The notes beneath the pieces were generated by a model that searched no databases, was not told where the DNA came from, and was given only the letters and a program-made list of their open reading frames with translations. This document shows positions 14,144 through 63,251 of a stretch of 64,000 nt of DNA, piece after piece. The position numbers and the translations under genes were made by a program. Origin of the DNA: a virus; the IMG/VR virus record IMGVR_UViG_3300005563_000035, positions 1-64,000 of that record; one strand, written 5' to 3'. Numbering within the stretch: position 1 is the stretch's first letter; every line of letters begins with the position of its first letter.

Positions 14144-16213
14144 ATGATGCCGATCACCATCACGGCAGCAGCGATCAAGCTGTTCGGCAATTGCTCGCCG
14201 CTGCAAAGCGTGCAGCCGGTGATTCTGGCCAACCCAGTCATCGGCCAGCCGCTGAACTACACGATCCCCGGCTACACCGGGCCGATCACGAGCCAGCAGT
14301 GGTACTGGAACACCGGCTCCGGACCGATCCTGATCCCCGGCGCCACGGGCTCGACCTACACGCCGAGCTTGACCAGCGCGCGCAGCGGCGCCAGCGACGT
14401 CGGCGGCTACCCGAGTGTCTCGGTGGTCACGCCGTTCGGAACCTTCCGCAGCCAAGAGTTTTCGGCCACCGGGCAAGTCATCTCGCAGACCGGCGTCCTG
14501 ACGAAGTCCTCGCCGACATCCGGCACGAACTTCATCGCGACCGAAGCCACGACGATCACGATCCTGACCGTGAGCGTGGTGCGGCTGATCTGCCCGCTCG
14601 GCCCGAACCCGACCTTCTACATCGAGACGACGGTCGCCCCGGGCACCTACACGGGTGGAACGAGCAACTTCGGCGACCCGACGCTGCTGGGTGGCACGCA
14701 GTTCAGCAGCAACGTCTACTCGTACCACTCGCTCGCGCCTGCTGCCTGTATCGACCAGGTCGCCGCCAAGCCCGCCACGGCCACGCGGCCGGCGGCGAGC
14801 ACGGGCGTCGGCTTCTTCACCAAGAACGGCGCGATCTACGACGCCAACGGCAACCGTTTCGACGGCCGTGGCCTGAACCGCCTCCACTGGGACTGCAACC
14901 GTCCTGGAAACGACACGGGCCTGTTCAACGCGAAGGCGAACACCCATCGCCTGTTCATCGACACGTCCCAGAACTGGGCGTCGGTGAACAAGCCGCTGAT
15001 CGACGCGATGATCTCCAACAGCGTCGTGCCGCAGCTGGTCATCCCCTACGTCCGCGCGAACTTCGAAGCGACGTTCTCGGGCACGACGATGACCGTCACG
15101 ACGATGAACTCGGGCGTGATCGGCTGCGCGCCGTCGTACAGCTCGGGCGCTGGCGGCGGCTTCATCTCGACCGGCGTGTCTTCGACCACGGTCATCAAGG
15201 CGCAGCTCACCAACACGAACCCGAGCGGCATCCCGGGCAAGGAGGGCACGTACACCACGAGCACCTCCAACAGCATCGCCTCGCCGCAGAATGTCGTCTA
15301 CAGCAACGGGACGACAGGCCAGAAGAACCCTGACTTCGCCGTCGCTGCGGCTCAGGTCTGGGTCGACAACTACGCGAACTTCGGCCCCTACGAGCGGTGG
15401 ATGCTGCTCAACATCATTAACGAGTGGGGCGCCTCAGCTGGTACCTACACCGCGTCGATCTCCGGGACGACGATGACCGTGCCGTCGAGTTCGGCCAGCG
15501 TCTACGTCGGCCAGAAGATCAACGGTTCGGGTGTGACGCCATGCACCGTCACTGCGTTCCTGACGGGAACCGGTTCGAACGGCACTTACACCGTGGACGT
15601 TAGCCAGACCGCGGCCAGCACCACGATGACCGATGTCACTTGGCGCGATACCTGCATCACCATGGTGCAGATGCTGCGCACCGCTGGCTACCTCGGAACC
15701 ATCGTGCTGGACGCGCCGGGCAGCGGCCAGGACGCTCCAGCCGCCGGTCGCGCGTGGACGATCCTGAACCACGCCGCTGCGATCAAGGCGGCGGATCCGC
15801 AGCAGAACATCGCCATCGAGCTCCACGCCTACGGTACGTATTCGGCCGGCGCGCTGGCGCCTGTGGCTCAGGCGATGGCTTCGGCGGCTGTCTCGCTCGG
15901 CATCCCATACGGCATCGGTGAGTTTGGCCCGGCCAACGAGAACGTCGCCTCCGGTTCGATCACGACCGCACAAACGCTCGAGACCATCTCGGTGGCTGCT
16001 GCCTGCGGCCTGAGCTGGAAGTACTGGGCCTGGGACGACCCGGTCAATGCTTCGAGCACGACCTCGGTTTACTACGCCGCCTGCCTCCAGGCGAACAGCA
16101 ACTTCTTCTCGACGTCGAACCCCGCGCAACTCACGACCGCCGGCCAGCAGCTGGTGCTCGATAGCACCTACGGACTGGTCAACGTCGCCGTACCTGCGAC
16201 CGTCTTCCCGTAA
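14144..16213 (+). CDS. GH5-like glycoside hydrolase, tail-associated, with inserted beta modules
   Basis: A 689-residue protein. Residues ~1-200 are beta-rich, Ig-like (ITSQQWYWNTGSGP), suited to virion attachment. From GRGLNRLHWDCNRPG onward a clan-A TIM-barrel of GH5 type follows: the acid/base Glu lies in NEWG (Glu427) and the nucleophile in IGEFG (Glu593), with IAIELHAYG and WKYWAWDDP as supporting strands. Two small beta modules interrupt it: ~311-383 and ~433-498, the latter directly after the catalytic NEWG. It probably cuts a beta-linked surface polysaccharide during adsorption. The 3' end overlaps a convergent gene. Confidence 0.72.
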   Translation: MMPITITAAAIKLFGNCSPLQSVQPVILANPVIGQPLNYTIPGYTGPITSQQWYWNTGSGPILIPGATGSTYTPSLTSARSGASDVGGYPSVSVVTPFGTFRSQEFSATGQVISQTGVLTKSSPTSGTNFIATEATTITILTVSVVRLICPLGPNPTFYIETTVAPGTYTGGTSNFGDPTLLGGTQFSSNVYSYHSLAPAACIDQVAAKPATATRPAASTGVGFFTKNGAIYDANGNRFDGRGLNRLHWDCNRPGNDTGLFNAKANTHRLFIDTSQNWASVNKPLIDAMISNSVVPQLVIPYVRANFEATFSGTTMTVTTMNSGVIGCAPSYSSGAGGGFISTGVSSTTVIKAQLTNTNPSGIPGKEGTYTTSTSNSIASPQNVVYSNGTTGQKNPDFAVAAAQVWVDNYANFGPYERWMLLNIINEWGASAGTYTASISGTTMTVPSSSASVYVGQKINGSGVTPCTVTAFLTGTGSNGTYTVDVSQTAASTTMTDVTWRDTCITMVQMLRTAGYLGTIVLDAPGSGQDAPAAGRAWTILNHAAAIKAADPQQNIAIELHAYGTYSAGALAPVAQAMASAAVSLGIPYGIGEFGPANENVASGSITTAQTLETISVAAACGLSWKYWAWDDPVNASSTTSVYYAACLQANSNFFSTSNPAQLTTAGQQLVLDSTYGLVNVAVPATVFP

Positions 16214-16721
16214 CAGTCCCGACGCCCACGGCCAGCACCAGCATCATCGCCGACACCGGCTCGGGAACCTGCCGAACAGCCTCTAGGGTGAAGTCGGAGT
16301 GCGATTCCTGCTCGTCGTACGAGATGGCGTTCATCCCGCCACCGTAGTGCGCGCCGAACACACAGCACCCATCGACACCCGCGTTGAGCGAGTAGCCGAC
16401 GACATAGCCGTTGCGAATCGACACCTCGGCGGCGTGATCCATATCGCTGGTGAAAGCCAACTCACGGCCTACGCCGGTCACAGCGAACCCGATGCCCGCG
16501 GCGTAGTAGTCGCCATCGGCAAGTGAAGGCAGGTCAATCGACAGAAGCCCGGTGAACTGGGTAGTCGTGTCGCACGGGTCGTCCTGATTGACCCCACATC
16601 CGTAGCCGGTCTGGATCCGGTAGCTCCCAGCGATGGGCAGGTTGACCACTGCGTCAGCCCTTGCCATCGAACACCCGAACGCCAATGCGGCAGCTCCCGC
16701 TGCCAAGACGGTGCGTCTCAT
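16179..16721 (-). CDS. Secreted PEP-CTERM-anchored protein (180 aa)
   Basis: ATG at 16,721 with AAGGGG six bases upstream; an upstream in-frame start is rejected because the signal peptide begins here. Signal peptide MRRTVLAAGAAALAFGCSMARA, then an extracellular beta-rich domain with several cysteines (YGCGVNQDDPCDT, GCCVFG), then the C-terminal sorting signal VPEP, a hydrophobic helix (SAMMLVLAVGVGTV) and a basic RRSQVRRR tail. This is the tripartite PEP-CTERM signal read by exosortase. It is the only leftward gene among tail genes, so it looks like a lysogenic-conversion gene changing the host surface. Confidence 0.8.
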   Translation of the reverse strand: MRRTVLAAGAAALAFGCSMARADAVVNLPIAGSYRIQTGYGCGVNQDDPCDTTTQFTGLLSIDLPSLADGDYYAAGIGFAVTGVGRELAFTSDMDHAAEVSIRNGYVVGYSLNAGVDGCCVFGAHYGGGMNAISYDEQESHSDFTLEAVRQVPEPVSAMMLVLAVGVGTVTGRRSQVRRR

Positions 16722-16840
16722 CTCGTTCCCCTTCGTGTTGTTGAACTCAACGCGACAGCGGAGCAGGCGCCCCACACACCAACCCGCATGCGCCGCGCCA
16801 GTCTAGTACGGCGCGCTGCCCGGGTATTGCTGAGCACGCC
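16722..16840. promoter_or_regulatory. Divergent gap upstream of PEP-CTERM gene and tail-fibre gene
   Basis: A 119-base region between divergent starts that must hold control signals for the leftward PEP-CTERM gene. I see a near-palindrome around GTTGAACTCAAC (about 16,738-16,753) but no convincing -35/-10 pair. The rightward fibre gene may rely on read-through. Confidence 0.25.
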
Positions 16841-19720
16841 ATGACCGCTCCCAACGCATTCCTCGTCGACCAGAACTCGACGACTACGCCGAACATCGCG
16901 GTCGCCGTTGACCCGTCGACGGGCGTTCCCACGTTCCTGACGGTCGACGGCAGCGGCAACCAGGTCGCAACGTCCTTCGGTGGCGGTGGCGGCGGTGGCG
17001 GTGGCGGGGACATGTACCTCGCCCAGATCCAGACCATCACGGGCGCCAAGACGTTCAACAGCGGCAAGTTCTCGGTCGCCGGCGCAACGAGCGGCGCGAT
17101 CACCGTCAATGCGCCGGCTGTTGCTGGGTCGAACACGATCACTCTGCCGGCTGCGACGGATACCCTCGTTGGCCGCGCCACGACGGACACGCTCACCAAC
17201 AAGACCCTGACCGCGCCCGTCATGTCGGCGCCTGTCCTGGGCACCCCTGCCAGCGGCAACCTGGCCAGCTGCACCGGCTTGCCGATCGCGACTGGCGTGT
17301 CCGGCCTCGGCGCAAACGTCGCCACGTTCCTGGCCACGCCCAGCAGCGCCAACTTCGCCGCAGCGATCACGGGCGGTACCGGCACTGGCGCGAACGTCTT
17401 CGCCAACAGCCCTGTGCTCGTCACGCCGAACATCGGTACGCCGAGCGCCGGCACCCTGACGAATTGCACGGGTCTGCCGCTGACCACGGGCGTCACTGGC
17501 ACGTTGCCGGGCGCCAACATGGCCGTGATGGTCGCCTCCGGCGCCAGCCACGCGCCGGGCGCCGTCCCCGACCCGGGCGCGAGCGCCGGCACCACCCGCT
17601 TCCTGCGCGAAGACGGCACCTGGTCCGCCCCGGCGGGCGGGGGCACCGTCACGAACTCGGGCAACCTGCTCTCCAACAGCATCGTCCTGGGCACGGGCAC
17701 GACCGGCACGCAGGTCGCCGCAGGCCTGACCACGGATGGCGTGTCCAAGGTCAACCTCGGCGTCGCGGGTACGTCTGTCGGCTCGGTGGGCTTCAGCAAT
17801 GCCACCAGCGGAAGCATCACGCTCGCCCCGGCGACTGGCGCGCTCGGCTCCGTCACCCTGACGATGCCGGCGGTCACGGACACGCTGGTTGCCCTCGGCG
17901 CCACGCAGACCCTGACGAACAAGACGCTCACCGCTCCCACGCTGAGCGGCATCGTCTCGACGGATGGCGCGAACATCACCACCGCGAATGCGATGGCTGC
18001 GCTCGCGATCGATGTCACCAAGGGCCTGAACACCAAGACGATCGCGGTTGACACTACGTTCACGTTTAGCGGCACGCCCGCGACGGCGAACACCTGGTTC
18101 TCCGTCCACGTCACCAACTCCGATCCCAATCCGCACACGCTGACGTTCCCGAGCGCGTTCTCGGTTGTCACCCAGGCGGCGCGCTCGACCTGCCCGATCG
18201 CCGGCAGCGGCCAGCTGTGGATCATGTTCCGCTGGGACGGCACCGCCTACCACGTCTTCGGGGACGGCGCGTTCCTGAACAGTTTCACGGCGACGACAAA
18301 CCCCGGCACGTCCAACGACGTGACGCAAGGCTACGGCGTCGGATCGCTGTGGGCCAACACGTCTTCGAACACCCTGTTCTGGTGCGAGTCGAACGCTGCT
18401 GGCGCGGCTGTCTGGAACTCCACCGGTGGCTCGGGCGACATGCTGCTCGGGACGTCGCAGACGGTCACGGCCGCCAAGACGTTCAACGACGCGACCCTCG
18501 TCCTGGCCGGGTCGACCAGCGGCAGCCTGACGCTGCACGCGACGGCTGCGGCCGGCTCAGGATCGTTCACGTTCCCCACGGGCACGGACACGGTGGTCGG
18601 TGTGGCGGCAACGCAGACCCTGACCAACAAGACCCTGACGTCGCCGACGCTGACAACTCCCGCGCTCGGGACGCCCGCGTCGGGAACGCTCACCAACTGC
18701 ACCGGCTTGCCGCTGTCGACCGGCGTCACGGGCAACCTGCCGCCGAGCAACCTCAACAGCGGCACCGGCGCGACTGCCAGCACCTACTGGCGTGGCGACG
18801 GTACCTGGGCGACCCCTGCCGGCGCCGGCACGGTAACCAACAGCGGCGGCGCGCTGACGGCCAACGCCGTAGTGCTGGGCGCCGGCTCGAGCGATGCCAA
18901 GGTAGTGGCTGGCGTCACGACCGATGGCGTGTCCAAGATCAATCTTGGCGTCGCCGGATCTTCGGTCGGTGGCGTCGTGCTGGCCAATGCGACCAGCGGC
19001 ACGATCACCATCGCGCCTGCGACGGGTGCCCTTGGCACGGTGACCCTGACGGCTCCTGCAGTGACCGACACCCTCGTGGGGCTGGCCGCCACGCAAGCGC
19101 TGACGAACAAGACCTACAACGGCAACACCTGGACGGCTGGCACCGCCACGCTGACGGGCGCGGCTGGCAAGACGCTGGCGTGGAACAACACGATCACGTT
19201 CGCAGCGGGTGCGGACGGCGCCACGTTCACCTTCCCGGGCACCAACGACACCATCGTGGGCCGCACGGCGACCCAGACGCTGACGAACAAGACGCTGACG
19301 ACCCCGGCGATCACCAACCCCGCGCTCTCGCATGCCAAGCCGGCGGCCAACCTGACGACCATCGGGACGACCATCAGCGGCTACAACGCGGGCGCGACGA
19401 TCACTCAGTTCCAGGCCGTCTACATGGGCTCTGGCGGCACCTGGCTGCTCGCCGATGCTGACGGTACCGGCACACGACAGGCGCGCGGTCTGGCTGCGGC
19501 TGCCGGCACCAGCGGCAACCCGCTTGATGTGCTGGACAACGGTATTGCACGCAACGATGCCTGGACGTGGACGCCTGGCGGAGACATCTACCTGAGCACG
19601 ACGGCGGGTGGCCTCACGCAGACGGCCCCCACCTCCGGCGCCGACGTTCGTCGCATCGGCTATGCACTGTCGGCCACTGAGATCCGCGTGCAGATCGACA
19701 GCTTCTACGTGACGGTGTGA
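16841..19720 (+). CDS. Long repetitive tail fibre protein (959 aa)
   Basis: After a short N-terminus and a nine-glycine linker, the protein is built of related blocks: [10 protein letters not shown] followed by [16 protein letters not shown] and beta segments such as [16 protein letters not shown]. Five copies of the LTNKT box are visible (near bases 17,190, 17,920, 18,620, 19,100 and 19,280). The C-terminus ([19 protein letters not shown] to [18 protein letters not shown]) is a capping domain often seen on such fibres. Trimeric fibrous shaft is the likely structure. Confidence 0.75.
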
Positions 19721-51501: not shown

Positions 51502-51684
51502 ATGCGCAGCGCAGACCTGATCAAAGACCTGGAAGCCGACGGCTGGAAGCTGCGGGGCGTCAAGGGCAGCCACCACGTTTTCAGCCATCCCACTAAGCCG
51601 GGTCACATCAGCGTCCCACACCCCAAGAAAGACCTCGGCGTCGGATTGGTGCACAAGCTACGCAAGCAAGCCGGCCTCAGTTGA
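51502..51684 (+). CDS. hicA: HicA mRNA interferase toxin
   Basis: A 60-residue protein with the HicA dsRBD-like fold: LIKDLEADGWKLRGVKGSHH with the catalytic His in GSHHVF, HPTKPGHISVPHPKKDL and VHKLRKQAGL. It cleaves mRNA when free of HicB. Start chosen at the ATG after the operator; an upstream GTG would lie inside the -10 box. Confidence 0.9.
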   Translation: MRSADLIKDLEADGWKLRGVKGSHHVFSHPTKPGHISVPHPKKDLGVGLVHKLRKQAGLS

Positions 51685-51727
51685 GGCCGCGGGGCCACCC
51701 CCCGTCATAGGGTGAGTAGAGGTAGGT

Positions 51728-52138
51728 ATGAAGTTCCTGATCGCAATCGAGCCCGGCTCGGAAACCACGGCATTTGGCGTCGTGGTTCCGGCTCTGCCGG
51801 GGTGCTTCTCTGCGGGCGACACGCTCGAGGAGGCGTTCGATAACGCCATCGAGGCGATCGAAGCCTTCTGCGAGGTGCTGGCAGAAGATGGCAAGGACAT
51901 GCCCGCAGCCATGTCGTTGGTCGACGTGATGGAGCGGCACGCCAAAGACTTTGAGGGCTGGACGTGGGGGATTGTTGACGCCCCGATCGAGCGCCTGTTC
52001 GGTCCAGCCGAAAAGATCAACATCACGGTGCCAGGCCGTGTACTCGTGAAGATCGACGAGCACGCCAAGAGCCGCGGCATGTCGCGCTCCGGCTTTCTGG
52101 TGCAAGCCGCGCAAGAGGCGATCGCGCACGGCGCTTGA
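51728..52138 (+). CDS. hicB: HicB antitoxin / repressor
   Basis: A 136-residue protein. N-terminal HicB fold (VPALPGCFSAGDTLEEAFDNAIEAI) that blocks HicA, C-terminal ribbon-helix-helix (INITVPGRVLVKIDEHAKSRGMSRSGFLVQAA) that binds DNA. GAGGTAGGT precedes the ATG. The pair can stabilise the prophage or act against other phages. Confidence 0.9.
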   Translation: MKFLIAIEPGSETTAFGVVVPALPGCFSAGDTLEEAFDNAIEAIEAFCEVLAEDGKDMPAAMSLVDVMERHAKDFEGWTWGIVDAPIERLFGPAEKINITVPGRVLVKIDEHAKSRGMSRSGFLVQAAQEAIAHGA

Positions 52139-52633: not shown

Positions 52634-52661
52634 ATGGGCGGTCTGTCTAATTTCCGCCCAT
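52634..52661. repeat. Inverted repeat overlapping tRNA 5' end
   Basis: ATGGGCGG (52,634-52,641) is the exact inverse of CCGCCCAT (52,654-52,661), and the right arm is the tRNA acceptor strand plus one base. The left arm repeats the 3' acceptor sequence TGGGCGG. It may be a remnant or a recombination-related feature. Confidence 0.5.
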
Positions 52662-52730
52662 AGCACAACCGGATAGTGCACCGGCCTTCTAAGCCGGTGG
52701 TTGCAGGTTCGAATCCTGCTGGGCGGGCCA
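52654..52730 (+). tRNA. tRNA-Arg (anticodon UCU), CCA encoded
   Basis: 77 bases fold as a full cloverleaf: acceptor CCGCCCA/TGGGCGG, D stem GCAC/GTGC, anticodon stem CCGGC/GCCGG with loop CTTCTAA (anticodon TCT), five-base variable loop, T stem GCAGG/CCTGC with loop TTCGAAT, discriminator G and CCA. The integrase gene stop lies eight bases beyond, so this gene is probably the phage attachment site, or a host tRNA at the prophage edge. Confidence 0.9.
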
Positions 52731-52737
52731 ATCTCCC

Positions 52738-53730
52738 CTACTTGGCTGGCTTCGCCCGCTTGGCGAACTTGCCTTCGACGTAGTCGCGGGTCATGGCCTC
52801 GGTGCTGTGACCGAGCAGCTTTTGAGCCGCTCCGATGTCCTCGTCGTCGCCCATCGCGTCAACGCCGGCCCGGCCGCGGAGATCGTGGATATTCAGGTCT
52901 TCGATGCCCGCCCTCGCCGCAGCGCGCACCCAGGCCGAGCGGATGCCCGAATACCGGTAGCCGCGCCCGCTCTGTGTCTTCAGAAGGTGACCGATCTTGT
53001 CGCGGCCGGCGGCGCATGCCTCGACGGCGGCCCGGAGTTCGGGCGACCACTCAATCAGGAGTCGCACTCGGCCTTGCGACTTCTTCTGCGTCACGTAGAT
53101 CCCGCGCGCGTCGTCCACGTCCTGCCAACGCATCTTGATGACGTCGCTGATGCGCTGGCCGGTCAGCATCGCCAAGTCGATCATCTGCACCAGTGCCTCA
53201 CCGTTGCGGGACTGCTGCAGCGCCGCGGCGCGCATGGCCTTGATCTCATCGTCCGTGACGATGCGGATGCGCCGCGACAGCTTCATCGGCGGGATGTTGT
53301 CGACTGGGTTGAAGCCCTCGCGAAGACCCTCGATGGCGGCAAACGCCAGCACGCCGCGGAGCATGGTGCGGTGCAGGTTGTGGGTGCGCGGCTTGTCGCG
53401 GTACTTGCGCAGGTAGGCCGCAGCGACGGGAGTCGTCACCTGGCTCGGCTGAAACTCAACCATGGCCGCAGCCATCTTCCCCGCGATTCGCTCCTGGTCG
53501 GCGGCCTGCTTCGTGCTCCAGTCATCGCGCTTTTGGTCGACCCAGCGCGTTATCACGGCTGGCATCATGTCGCCGCGGACTTCGGTGTCCATGACGCGCG
53601 CCAACGCCCGCAGCATCGCCGGGATACCGTCGTTCTCGCGCGACAAGCCGATCCACTTACCGGCCGGCGTCACGTAGTAGTAGCGCCCATGCTTGACATA
53701 GACGCGCTTCGGAAGCTCGGTGCGGGTCAT
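52738..53730 (-). CDS. int: Tyrosine recombinase (phage integrase)
   Basis: A 330-residue protein. Catalytic set by my count: Arg193 (LTGQRISDVI), His282 and Arg285 (IHDLRGRAG), His308 (LLGHST), Tyr317 (TRDYVEG). An N-terminal arm-binding/core-binding domain precedes. It integrates at the adjacent tRNA-Arg and excises with an excisionase, perhaps the DUF4224 protein whose gene overlaps its start. Confidence 0.93.
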   Translation of the reverse strand: MTRTELPKRVYVKHGRYYYVTPAGKWIGLSRENDGIPAMLRALARVMDTEVRGDMMPAVITRWVDQKRDDWSTKQAADQERIAGKMAAAMVEFQPSQVTTPVAAAYLRKYRDKPRTHNLHRTMLRGVLAFAAIEGLREGFNPVDNIPPMKLSRRIRIVTDDEIKAMRAAALQQSRNGEALVQMIDLAMLTGQRISDVIKMRWQDVDDARGIYVTQKKSQGRVRLLIEWSPELRAAVEACAAGRDKIGHLLKTQSGRGYRYSGIRSAWVRAAARAGIEDLNIHDLRGRAGVDAMGDDEDIGAAQKLLGHSTEAMTRDYVEGKFAKRAKPAK

Positions 53731-60436: not shown

Positions 60437-60624
60437 GCAAAAAGTTCCTGCTGTGCCGGCAGTTGCGCGGCGGGGATGTCGAACCACTCGATCTCGGCGG
60501 GCCACGGCTGGCGGTCGACCGGCATGGCGATGAACGAGCCCTTACGGCAAGCCTCGACATGGAGCCAGTACCAGGCGGCGGACCAGCCATCAATGGCGCG
60601 CTGAGTGAAGATCGGCGGCATCAT
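60433..60624 (-). CDS. Small protein coupled to DGR reverse transcriptase (63 aa)
   Basis: ATG 60,624 overlaps the reverse-transcriptase stop (ATGA). Aromatic-rich (FTQRAIDGWSAAWYWLHVEA, MPVDRQPWPAEIEWFDIP). It could be co-translated with the retroelement, but sequence gives no DGR-related function. Confidence 0.5.
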   Translation of the reverse strand: MMPPIFTQRAIDGWSAAWYWLHVEACRKGSFIAMPVDRQPWPAEIEWFDIPAAQLPAQQELFA

Positions 60625-61982
60625 TGGTTTGCCGCCTTGCGATAGACCTTGGTGCAATCGGCATTGACCGTGAACCCGCGCTTGCGAGCTACGTTGGCCA
60701 GGCGCGATCGCAGCGCATGGCTGGCCGGCGACTGACGCATCAGGCCGAAATAGCTGTTGATGGCGGCTGGGTAGTCCACGTCCGCGGTTGCCTCCAGGCG
60801 ACGCAACGCATTGGGCAGCGCATTGGTGCGCGGCACGCGTCGCCACGGCTTGATGACGTGGCCCACGAAGTCGACGCCACGGTCTACCGGCTGCAGGACG
60901 GTCTTGCGCACATTCAGGCGCGCGCCGAGCCGAGCAGGCAAGAACTCGGCAATTCGGCCCAGCCATTCGACCAGCGCGGCGCTTGACTCATGCAACAACA
61001 CGAAGTCATCGACGTAGCGCACGTATCGCGGCGCCCGCAGCCGGTGCTTGACGAATTGGTCGAGCGCGTCGAGGTGAACGTTGGCGAAGAACTGTGACGA
61101 CAGATTGCCGATCGGCAGGCCCGTGTCCGCCGGCGCGTTGAACAGGCTCTTGTGTGGTGGCACCAGGCGCATGACCGCCGGCGGCGAGCGCACCTCGACG
61201 TCCTCGCGCGGATCATGGAACAAGATCGTCTCGGCCAGCACCTGCCACCATTCGCCATCAATGCGCGGCACGAGCTGCTCGCATAACACGCGCTTGTCGA
61301 TGGCCACGAAGAAGTTGGCCAGGTCACACTTCAGGTAGAACGCGGGCAGACTCCAGTTGCGCGTGACGCCGCGCGCTTGGTGCTCAAGGCGACGTGCCGC
61401 GTACAGTGTGCCGCGGCCGGGAATGCACGCGCAACTGTCTGCCACGAACGAGGCGTAGAAGCGGGGCGAGATCTGGTTGTAGAGGAGGTGGTGCACCACC
61501 CGATCGCGGAAGCCGGCCGCCCAGATCTCGCGTGGCTTTGGACGCCGCGCGACGAAGCACGTCGATCGCCCAGGCCGGTAGGCGCCTGAGACCAGATCCT
61601 CGTGCAGGTCGCACAGCTCTCGCTCTAGGTGGGCCTCGAATGCGAGGGCGCTCGCGCTGTTGCGCTTCGTGCGCCGGCAGTCCAGGTAGGCCCGGACCAG
61701 GGAGGAGAACAGGTTTGGATCTGCGGACGGCCCGAGCGCAGTTCTTGTTGTTGACGTTGTTCCAGTCCTGGTTGCCGTTGTTGAAGTTCTGCATCCAGGC
61801 GTTCGAGCCAGAGTCGCGCTATCGACGTCGCCAAGCCGAAGGCTGTCGCCGATCAGCCCGGAAACTGCACCGGACAGAGCTGGACGCGCCAGCCGGTTCC
61901 CGAGTGTGTGCGTGGCGGTGGCCTCGTGAGCCAGCGGCGCGACCAGATTCATGCGCACGGGCATGAGAGCCTTGACTGTCAT
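60621..61982 (-). CDS. DGR reverse transcriptase
   Basis: 453 residues from ATG 61,982, which overlaps the avd stop (ATGA). The enzyme core starts near residue 90 (NLFSSLVRAYLDCRR). Motifs: PKPREI, FYLKCDLANFF (first Asp), IGNLSSQ (~301-307; the SQ form is diagnostic for DGR enzymes) and RYVDDFVLL (~322-330, catalytic YVDD). It copies the template RNA with errors at adenine. Residues ~58-88 overlap the template repeat; no ATG, GTG or TTG lies between it and the core, so the N-terminus may be partly untranslated or the true start unusual. Confidence 0.93.
   Translation of the reverse strand: MTVKALMPVRMNLVAPLAHEATATHTLGNRLARPALSGAVSGLIGDSLRLGDVDSATLARTPGCRTSTTATRTGTTSTTRTALGPSADPNLFSSLVRAYLDCRRTKRNSASALAFEAHLERELCDLHEDLVSGAYRPGRSTCFVARRPKPREIWAAGFRDRVVHHLLYNQISPRFYASFVADSCACIPGRGTLYAARRLEHQARGVTRNWSLPAFYLKCDLANFFVAIDKRVLCEQLVPRIDGEWWQVLAETILFHDPREDVEVRSPPAVMRLVPPHKSLFNAPADTGLPIGNLSSQFFANVHLDALDQFVKHRLRAPRYVRYVDDFVLLHESSAALVEWLGRIAEFLPARLGARLNVRKTVLQPVDRGVDFVGHVIKPWRRVPRTNALPNALRRLEATADVDYPAAINSYFGLMRQSPASHALRSRLANVARKRGFTVNADCTKVYRKAANQ
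61722..61809 (-). repeat. DGR template repeat (TR)
   Basis: 88 bases related to two variable repeats. In the target-equivalent frame it reads AWMQNFNNGNQDWNNVNN, full of AAC codons at the variable positions. It differs from VR1 at 16 sites, all A on the coding strand, and from VR2 at 12 sites, 11 of them A. The 3' (left) 19 bases TGCGGACGGCCCGAGCGCA are invariant and form the initiation (IMH-like) segment. Confidence 0.93.
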
Positions 61983-62344
61983 GCTGCAGGCGCCCCGTTC
62001 GCTGCGGACTTGAGCCACCCACCACCTTGCTTGCCGATGCTGTCCAGGAGCTGCACCGCGTCCGCCCACACCTTCGTGGCCACGTAGCGGTTGTCGTGGC
62101 TCACGCGCAGCAGCACGGTCAGCGTGCGCTGGTGGGACAGCAGGTTCTCGACGTGGCGCGCCCGCTCTCCGCGCTTGGTCGCGTTGGCGAGCGCCATCTC
62201 GTCGAGCATGTCGATGCAGTGCTGGCTGATCTTCTCGCCCAGGCTACGCTTGACGCCTCGCGGCATCTGTTCCTGCGCGCGCACGGCCAGCGTCAGCAGC
62301 TGGGTACCCGTGCGGTAGATCGGCAAGTCATGGTGGAGGGCCAT
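61979..62344 (-). CDS. avd: Accessory variability determinant (Avd)
   Basis: A 121-residue protein of canonical bAvd size. A four-helix bundle is evident: LPIYRTGTQLLTLAVRAQEQMPRGVKRSLGEKI, then LDEMALANATKRGERARHVENL, TVLLRVSHDNRYVATKVWADAVQLLDSIGKQ. Basic faces bind template RNA and the reverse transcriptase as a pentamer. It lies between target 1 and TR in the BPP-1-like order. GAGGAAC precedes the ATG. Confidence 0.9.
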   Translation of the reverse strand: MALHHDLPIYRTGTQLLTLAVRAQEQMPRGVKRSLGEKISQHCIDMLDEMALANATKRGERARHVENLLSHQRTLTVLLRVSHDNRYVATKVWADAVQLLDSIGKQGGGWLKSAANGAPAA

Positions 62345-62372
62345 GGCTCAGTTCCTCAAAAGGATTGAAGGA

Positions 62373-62822
62373 TCAAGCGGAAACTCTGCGGACGGCCCGA
62401 GCGCAGCCCTCGTAGCCGACGCCGTCCCAGCCCTGGTAGCCGTAGTCGAAGCCCTGCATCCAGGCGTCCGAGCCGTTCTCGTGCGCTTCGCTCGACCAGT
62501 AGTAGCGCGCCTGGAAGCCGTCCTTGGCGTTGGCGAACAGCAGCGACTGCTCGCGCCGCGTCGGCAGCTCGCCGCCGGCCTTGGCCGCCCACGTCTTGGC
62601 GGCGGCCCAGTTCGCCTCGGTTTCGCCGGGCAGGAGCACCAGGTGGTGCGCCGGCGTTCCGTCGTCGTTCAGGATCAGGCCGGCGTAGGTCTCGCCTTCG
62701 GCCAGCGAGATCGATGCCGCGGCCACGGTGATGACGCGTGGCCGCGCGCGTTCGAAGGCGGCGATCTTCTCGGCCAGGCGCACCTGGTCGGACTTGAGAT
62801 CCTCGAGGGTGATCGTGGTCAT
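62373..62822 (-). CDS. DGR target protein 1 (C-type-lectin-like)
   Basis: A 149-residue protein. An N-terminal helix (LKSDQVRLAEKIAAFERA), then a DUF1566/CLec-like domain: WAAAKTWAAKAGGELPTR, LLFANAKDGF, YYWSSEAHENGSDAWMQ. It ends in the variable part GFDYGYQGWDGVGYEG and CARAVRRVSA. The variable residues are Gly/Asp/Tyr-rich, typical of a binding face. No signal peptide; possibly virion-borne or cytosolic. GAAGGAG precedes the ATG. Confidence 0.9.
   Translation of the reverse strand: MTTITLEDLKSDQVRLAEKIAAFERARPRVITVAAASISLAEGETYAGLILNDDGTPAHHLVLLPGETEANWAAAKTWAAKAGGELPTRREQSLLFANAKDGFQARYYWSSEAHENGSDAWMQGFDYGYQGWDGVGYEGCARAVRRVSA
62387..62474 (-). repeat. DGR variable repeat 1 (VR1)
   Basis: 88 bases at the 3' end of target 1. 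Sixteen differences from TR, every one at a template adenine (coding strand). The last 19 bases match TR exactly. Encodes the variable lectin loops. Confidence 0.93.
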
Positions 62823-62846
62823 GATGCGTTGGCTCCTTCGAAAGGA

Positions 62847-63251
62847 TCAAAGGACCAAAGGAATCATGCGGACGGCCCGAGCGCAGTTCTTGAAGTTGAC
62901 GTAGTCCCAGTACTGGTCGCCGTAGTGGAAGAACTGCATCCAGGCGCCCGAGCCGATGTAGGCCTCGGACGTCCAGTGCCAGTCCTTCTCGAACTGGTCC
63001 TTCGCGTTGGCGAAGAGCATGGCCGCGGCCGGGCGCGCCGGCAGCTCGCCGTCGACGCTCTCGGCCCACTTCTTCGCGTCGGCCCAGTTCAGATCCTTGC
63101 CGGGCTTGTCGGCCAGCAGCACGACAGCGACATGCACGCCGCTGGGCAGCGTCAGGATGCCTTGGAACGTGCCGCCCTCGAGCGGCGAACCCAGCGCCAG
63201 TGCGGCAACGGCCGCGAGCGCGAGGGGCTTGATTTCGGTCTTGGTGGTCAT
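62847..63251 (-). CDS. DGR target protein 2 (C-type-lectin-like)
   Basis: A 134-residue protein related to target 1 in its lectin part (NWADAKKWAESVDGELPAR, MLFANAKDQF, HWTSEAYIGSGAWMQ) and ending FFHYGDQYWDYVNFKNCARAVRMIPLVL-like with its own variable residues (F, H, Y, D, Y, Y, F). N-terminus KPLALAAVAALALGSPLEGG is hydrophobic and could act as a signal peptide. First gene of the DGR block in transcription order. Confidence 0.88.
   Translation of the reverse strand: MTTKTEIKPLALAAVAALALGSPLEGGTFQGILTLPSGVHVAVVLLADKPGKDLNWADAKKWAESVDGELPARPAAAMLFANAKDQFEKDWHWTSEAYIGSGAWMQFFHYGDQYWDYVNFKNCARAVRMIPLVL
62867..62954 (-). repeat. DGR variable repeat 2 (VR2)
   Basis: 88 bases at the 3' end of target 2. 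Twelve differences from TR: eleven at template adenines plus one G-to-T (coding strand, base 62,912) that turns GAC into TAC. The shared 19-base end is intact. Confidence 0.92.

Follow-up and report, generated by a model that had tools for sequence, protein, structure and literature searches.

A PEP-CTERM-type gene of a temperate phage in an apparent antisense slot shared with its relatives

PEP-CTERM sorting shapes the matrix and the flocs of environmental bacteria, and to our knowledge the roles of individual PEP-CTERM proteins are largely unknown. The PEP-CTERM/exosortase (EpsH/Xrt) system was described, in the portions of the paper available to us, together with its single-gene units and cis-motifs (Haft 2006, PMC1569441); in the PrsR/sigma-54 PEP-CTERM regulon, a motif ending in TTTACA lies ~63 nt upstream of the −24/−12 site. 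According to the available part of a study on Aquincola (PMC9850573), overexpression of the PEP-CTERM protein PepA restores floc formation and bound exopolysaccharide (EPS) in an rpoN1 mutant. Yellowstone hot-spring virus contigs carry horizontally gained TIGR03118 proteins with an exosortase-interaction domain (n = 13, in the available part of PMC11003980), and exosortase-tagged proteins in viral contigs therefore have some precedent. Among the papers on PEP-CTERM or exosortase and phages or prophages, in the parts available, no phage slot of the kind reported here was found described.

Here we analysed 64,000 nt of viral DNA (the window, positions 1 to 64,000 of record IMGVR_UViG_3300005563_000035, called G000 among its relatives), in which a gene for a PEP-CTERM-type protein of 180 aa lies on the minus strand at 16179–16721. 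Compared with the bacterial system, as far as the available text of PMC1569441 describes it, the window gene has the same plan of a signal-like N-terminus, a variable ectodomain, and a Pro-Glu-Pro (PEP) motif followed by a hydrophobic helix and a basic cluster, encoded in a single-gene unit; it differs in being encoded by a phage, and by one without an exosortase. The surface lipoprotein Ltp of Streptococcus thermophilus phages, in the part of PMC3952083 at hand, is likewise a host-surface gene of temperate phages that forms its own unit outside the virion programme, but Ltp has a lipid anchor whereas the window protein has an exosortase tag and a predicted function. The hot-spring proteins are exosortase-tagged too; the available text of PMC11003980 mentions neither a conserved slot nor a phage clade nor any swapping of ectodomains.

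The original prediction had placed the gene at 16179–16721 on the minus strand, and translation of the window bears this out, with an ATG at 16721 and a stop codon ending at 16179. Starting from an in-frame GTG at 16775, the protein would have 198 aa, and a codon-usage caller chose a GTG at 16649, in which case the signal sequence is lost. We preferred the ATG to the upstream GTG because a purine-rich, ribosome-site-like AAGGGGA (16727–16733, minus strand) lies 6–12 nt before it and because the ATG is aligned in relatives; it was favoured over the downstream GTG because the 5′ part is identical with that of near relatives and because signal-like N-termini recur in other phages. The AAGGGGA also bears out the claim that the gene has its own ribosome site.

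Two near-relative contigs (IMGVR 3300005614_000667 and 3300005577_000098) carry the gene at 93% amino-acid identity between the same neighbours. The 36 differences from the near relative in 543 nt are distributed 7/8/21 over codon positions 1/2/3, with a dN/dS of 0.216 overall and 0.061 for residues 24–150. When the same differences were scattered at random, every one of 1000 trials had at least 18 amino-acid changes, as against the 13 observed, and 307 of the trials gained a stop codon. The PEP-CTERM-type open reading frame is a real gene with an ectodomain under purifying selection. Long antisense frames are common in a genome of 64% G+C, and a loose tail pattern was found 7 times even in 7,361 frames of reversed sequence; a spurious antisense open frame is nevertheless scarcely credible, being refuted by the codon-wise conservation and by a distant homologue (35% identity, see below), and disfavoured by recurrence at one place, all 20 matches to the same pattern in 9,731 frames (from redundant loci) being copies of the same gene.

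Three parts of the protein were distinguished. Residues 1–23 (16653–16721, minus strand) comprise MRR, a hydrophobic core (best 12-residue hydropathy 2.05) and an ARA-DA site, which is signal-peptide-like by a hydropathy and AxA heuristic only; this N-terminus resembles those of related phages G001, G002 and G003. Residues 24–151 (16269–16652, minus strand) form the ectodomain. Here the predicted cysteine-bearing beta domain was supported as to its cysteines, of which the protein has five with four in the ectodomain, while the beta prediction is weak: AlphaFold models are beta-rich but of low confidence (mean pLDDT 49 and 51.5), too poor for a fold search. A lipoprotein reading, prompted by Cys17, was rejected, since a lipobox match occurs in none of six such proteins (0/6). 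Residues 152–180 (16182–16268, minus strand) are the tail, QVPEPVSAMMLVLAVGVGTVTGRRSQVRRR, in which QVPEP is followed by a hydrophobic stretch (best 15-residue hydropathy 2.25) and RR, so that by sequence and a hydropathy heuristic a C-terminal Pro-Glu-Pro, a transmembrane helix and a basic cluster follow one another. Between the window and its near relative, residues 151–180 show 2 synonymous and 10 non-synonymous differences; the near relative's tail is freely changed, yet the PEP, the hydrophobic stretch and the arginines are kept.

The scores against curated models stay just below their cut-offs. TIGR02595 matched 16197–16268 with 15.9 bits in a six-frame search and the whole protein with 12.3 bits in hmmscan (cut-off 16), and PF07589 gave 13.0 bits (cut-off 20.7); for this reason we file the protein as PEP-CTERM-type, without certified membership. 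Of the full VPEP-hydrophobic-basic sorting tail that had been claimed, the elements are thus present while the curated scores narrowly fail to confirm it.

The source record (70,367 bases, 64% G+C) is that of a virus and encodes a terminase, portal, major head protein, tail sheath, baseplate proteins, spanin and tyrosine integrase (52738–53730, minus strand; profile matches), a set that points to a temperate contractile-tailed phage. The portal shares ~50% identity with those of lytic Burkholderia and Pseudomonas phages, a likeness that does not fix the host, and the capsid protein gave three distant plasmid matches of at most 29% identity. A predicted tRNA-Arg(TCT) gene (52654–52730, plus strand) abuts the integrase gene and is a possible attachment site; it is complete, with CCA encoded, and ends 8 nt from the integrase stop codon. 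The exact 77-nt tRNA sequence was found in 0 genome contigs and 0 viral contigs.

Other phage PEP-CTERM genes were searched for, as the original prediction had proposed, and same-plan antisense genes were found in related phages. Relatives were gathered by a capsid search (68 loci) and a terminase search (80 loci), and 145 related virus records were searched in six frames with TIGR02595 (match threshold E≤1, cut-off 16 bits). Eight records matched (6/51, 2/50 and 0/44 by batch), five of them over the cut-off; in seven (G000, G010, G011, G001, G002, G019 and G051) the match lies in an antisense gene at the corresponding place, hereafter the slot, and the match in G074, a 46-aa frame at 10 bits, was discounted. 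TIGR02595 missed a further record, G003, whose antisense gene follows the same plan and has a VPEA tail, and the G051 gene, also of this plan, has a VDEP tail. Among records with a capsid identity of 72% or more or a terminase identity of 73% or more, all eight that reach the place, coverage being judged from coordinates, contain a gene of the slot plan. In a heuristic scan of the 80 terminase loci, 54 of which extend over 2.5 kb upstream, the only loci with an exact or a VPEA tail were L099, L100 and L103, along with the case of L101; the other antisense frames passing it were not PEP-like. Of 14 named genomes of bacteria and archaea used as a control, TIGR02595 matched 7 (2 over the cut-off); the short model alone is therefore no proof, and it is the shared place that carries the argument.

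The place itself is closely kept. The slot gene overlaps the 3′ end of a tail-fibre-like gene by 35, 37, 23, 14 and 26 nt in G000, G001, G002, G019 and G003, respectively, and by coordinate subtraction its start lies ~118–119 nt from the divergent next gene in G000, G001, G002 and G003 and 276 nt from it in G019. That next gene belongs to the terminase region in G001, G002, G019, G003 and G051 and is a gene for 959 aa in the window, which suggests that tail gene, slot gene and upstream space moved together. Such movement, like the difference of ectodomains among phages, would also be expected of a recent, accidental capture of a host gene next to an exchangeable tail gene, without use to the phage; with a dN/dS of 0.06 and a same-plan gene in every clade record covering the place, we regard this explanation as quite improbable. 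The window gene thus appears, from these comparisons, to be the occupant of a slot common to a phage clade, with its ectodomains exchanged, and no one-off insertion.

The exchange was followed from protein to protein. G001 (IMGVR 3300044691_000116) encodes, at the same antisense place, a homologue with 35% identity over 133 aa, the ectodomains alone matching at E 7e-8, and its protein exceeds both cut-offs (PF07589 22.4 bits, TIGR02595 17.0 bits). The slot genes of G002 and G019 are likewise antisense and converge on a tail gene, with ectodomains unrelated to that of the window; the G019 protein exceeds both cut-offs (TIGR02595 18.0, PF07589 27.5 bits), and the G002 protein exceeds that of TIGR02595 (16.2 bits, cut-off 16) and just misses that of PF07589 (19.8 bits, cut-off 20.7). 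No pair of ectodomains among G000, G002, G003, G019 and G051 was significantly similar (all E > 0.4 or unreported), while tails and N-termini are alike in G000, G002 and G003 (MRRTVLAAGAAA, MKRNLLAAGAAA and MRRNLLAAGAAA). G002 and G003 have homologous tail genes but unrelated slot proteins, and strict pairing of slot protein with tail gene was therefore rejected. The G019 protein resembles the flocculation protein PepA, matching the C-terminal part of NF033554 (E 2e-7, 31 bits, below the cut-off of 80), which the window protein matches weakly or not at all.

Such a kept tag bears on two other readings. The C-terminal helix might simply anchor an exported protein in the inner membrane, with no exosortase cut and with a periplasmic role such as superinfection exclusion by blocking DNA entry; the window tail's scores below the curated cut-offs and the hydrophobic-basic tails without an exact PEP in G003 and G051 would suit this, but a plain anchor needs no PEP, which is exact in six of the eight slot records and kept across three unrelated ectodomains, and we judge it unlikely. 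A decoy substrate, produced in infection or in the lysogen, that occupies the host exosortase, leaving host PEP-CTERM proteins unsorted and the EPS barrier loosened, would account for a conserved tag on ectodomains that differ. A mere decoy would not be expected to have its ectodomain under purifying selection, and the gene is antisense to the late genes; this explanation seems to us highly improbable.

Beyond the clade, searches for homologues of the PEP protein gave no match in phages and no accepted relative in plasmids, where one Streptomyces match (E 0.3) was rejected. A genome scan with the PEP alignment yielded 93 pattern matches and 0 confirmed relatives, and a tail-only scan of viral contigs confirmed only the query's own source; the nearest outside relatives of the window ectodomain were in viral contigs only.

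The gene had been described as lying among tail-fibre genes. One neighbour is a tail-fibre-like gene of 689 aa (14144–16213, plus strand) with a GH5/cellulase-like domain (PF00150, E 9e-10), whose homologue stands beside the PEP gene in G001 and whose 3′ end overlaps the PEP gene convergently by 35 nt (16179–16213). The other neighbour, the divergent 959-aa gene (16841–19720, plus strand), is repetitive and matches virion structural families (phrog_692, E 2.5e-15). The PEP gene had also been said to stand alone on the opposite strand; a gene caller placed only one other minus-strand frame (62 aa, weak score) in window positions 1–52,190. Close relatives (80–85%) of the 689-aa gene occur in L005, L007, L009 and L010 with different downstream genes and no slot gene there, and it therefore appears to be an exchangeable tail module; among the phages searched, its protein had no homologues. 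The 959-aa gene contains repeats and a poly-glycine run and is 99.9% identical in L001/L002, as against 93% for the adjoining PEP gene.

On the opposite strand, the PEP gene has an intergenic space of 119 nt upstream, compared with the more than 200 nt usual in the bacterial system (PMC1569441, available text), and in this space lies a conserved element, CTAGACTGGCGCGGCG (16791–16806, minus strand), which includes TAGACT and stands 84 nt before the ATG. TAGACT occurs 74–84 nt upstream of the ATG in five of six distinct slot genes and is missing in G003; the 16-nt form YTAGACTGRCNCRSCG has a single mismatch-free occurrence in the window, and TTAGACTGGC is present in 5 of 97 loci, all at the slot genes of G002 and G019. 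As a guess, the element is possibly a promoter −10 box; a simple scan at the PEP gene found no sigma-70 promoter and no terminator. Control by sigma-54 and PrsR, which a TGGC-CG-N4-ATGC 64 nt before the ATG had prompted us to consider, was unsupported: differing from the cis-motifs in the available part of PMC1569441, the activator motif ending in TTTACA is absent within 250 nt upstream of the six slot genes (0/6), and a GG-N10-GC site scoring 9/11 stands upstream of the window's gene only, such matches not being enriched window-wide (20 found, 31.6 expected).

Carriage by a temperate phage, as in lysogenic conversion by a moron gene, was found in all four long records with the slot, G000, G001, G002 and G003, which encode an integrase. 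The original prediction is partly supported: a PEP-CTERM-type protein is encoded in a temperate phage, on the opposite strand and with its own ribosome site, and the integrase and the conserved upstream element fit a lysogenic-conversion gene; temperate lifestyle, the strand opposite the late genes, the ribosome site and the upstream element together suggest expression outside the lytic programme. Since none of the eight phage records with the slot, that of the window included, encodes an exosortase (0/8), the PEP tag implies that of the host. We consider it fairly probable that the place is a conserved surface-protein slot of a clade of temperate contractile-tailed phages, effecting lysogenic conversion by a protein that the host exosortase sorts. 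The slot gene would have a transcript of its own, the signal peptide would direct export of the protein, and the C-terminal helix would retain the protein in the inner membrane of the host; host exosortase would then cut at the PEP motif and pass the ectodomain to the cell surface or exopolysaccharide, and we propose that the lysogen thereby gets a surface or matrix protein chosen by the phage. We infer that the gene is expressed in the lysogen and that its product is processed by exosortase and located at the surface, and we likewise infer any benefit, which might be receptor masking or superinfection exclusion or, as with PepA in floc-forming bacteria, a stickier EPS.

The neighbouring tail gene allows a narrower proposal. 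A tail gene away from the slot matches, among others, an EPS-depolymerase family, and because of this match and the GH5-like adjoining gene the phage probably meets polysaccharide on entry; a surface or EPS protein of the lysogen could cover that polysaccharide or reinforce the matrix. We tentatively raise, while holding it rather doubtful, that beside a receptor-binding tail gene the clade keeps an antisense slot dedicated to proteins sorted by exosortase, in which phages exchange the ectodomain, in part along with that tail gene, but retain the start, the signal, the tag and the upstream element; the protein that each phage gives its lysogen for the surface or EPS would then match the glycan attacked by the phage's own tail, shutting out sister phages. 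If phages do plug interchangeable cargo into PEP-CTERM sorting, they would provide a natural swap set in which evolution has separated tag from cargo, and lysogeny would be a route to an altered biofilm and floc matrix; with the slot, surface conversion by way of exosortase can also be put to the test.

Two further loci of the window were recorded. Near the integrase (51502–52138), a HicB-type antitoxin gene (51728–52138; Pfam E 2.7e-39) is preceded by a 60-aa open reading frame that may be its HicA partner. A diversity-generating retroelement occupies 60621–63251, with a reverse transcriptase (phrog_1423, E 1.7e-103), Avd (61979–62344), a template near 61722–61797 and a variable repeat near 62867–62942 at the end of a 134-aa gene, a paralogue of which (62373–62822) weakly matches Lcl_C. 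As its target the element has a small lectin-like protein remote from the tail genes, and 9 of the 10 differences between template and variable repeat in 76 nt fall at template adenines.
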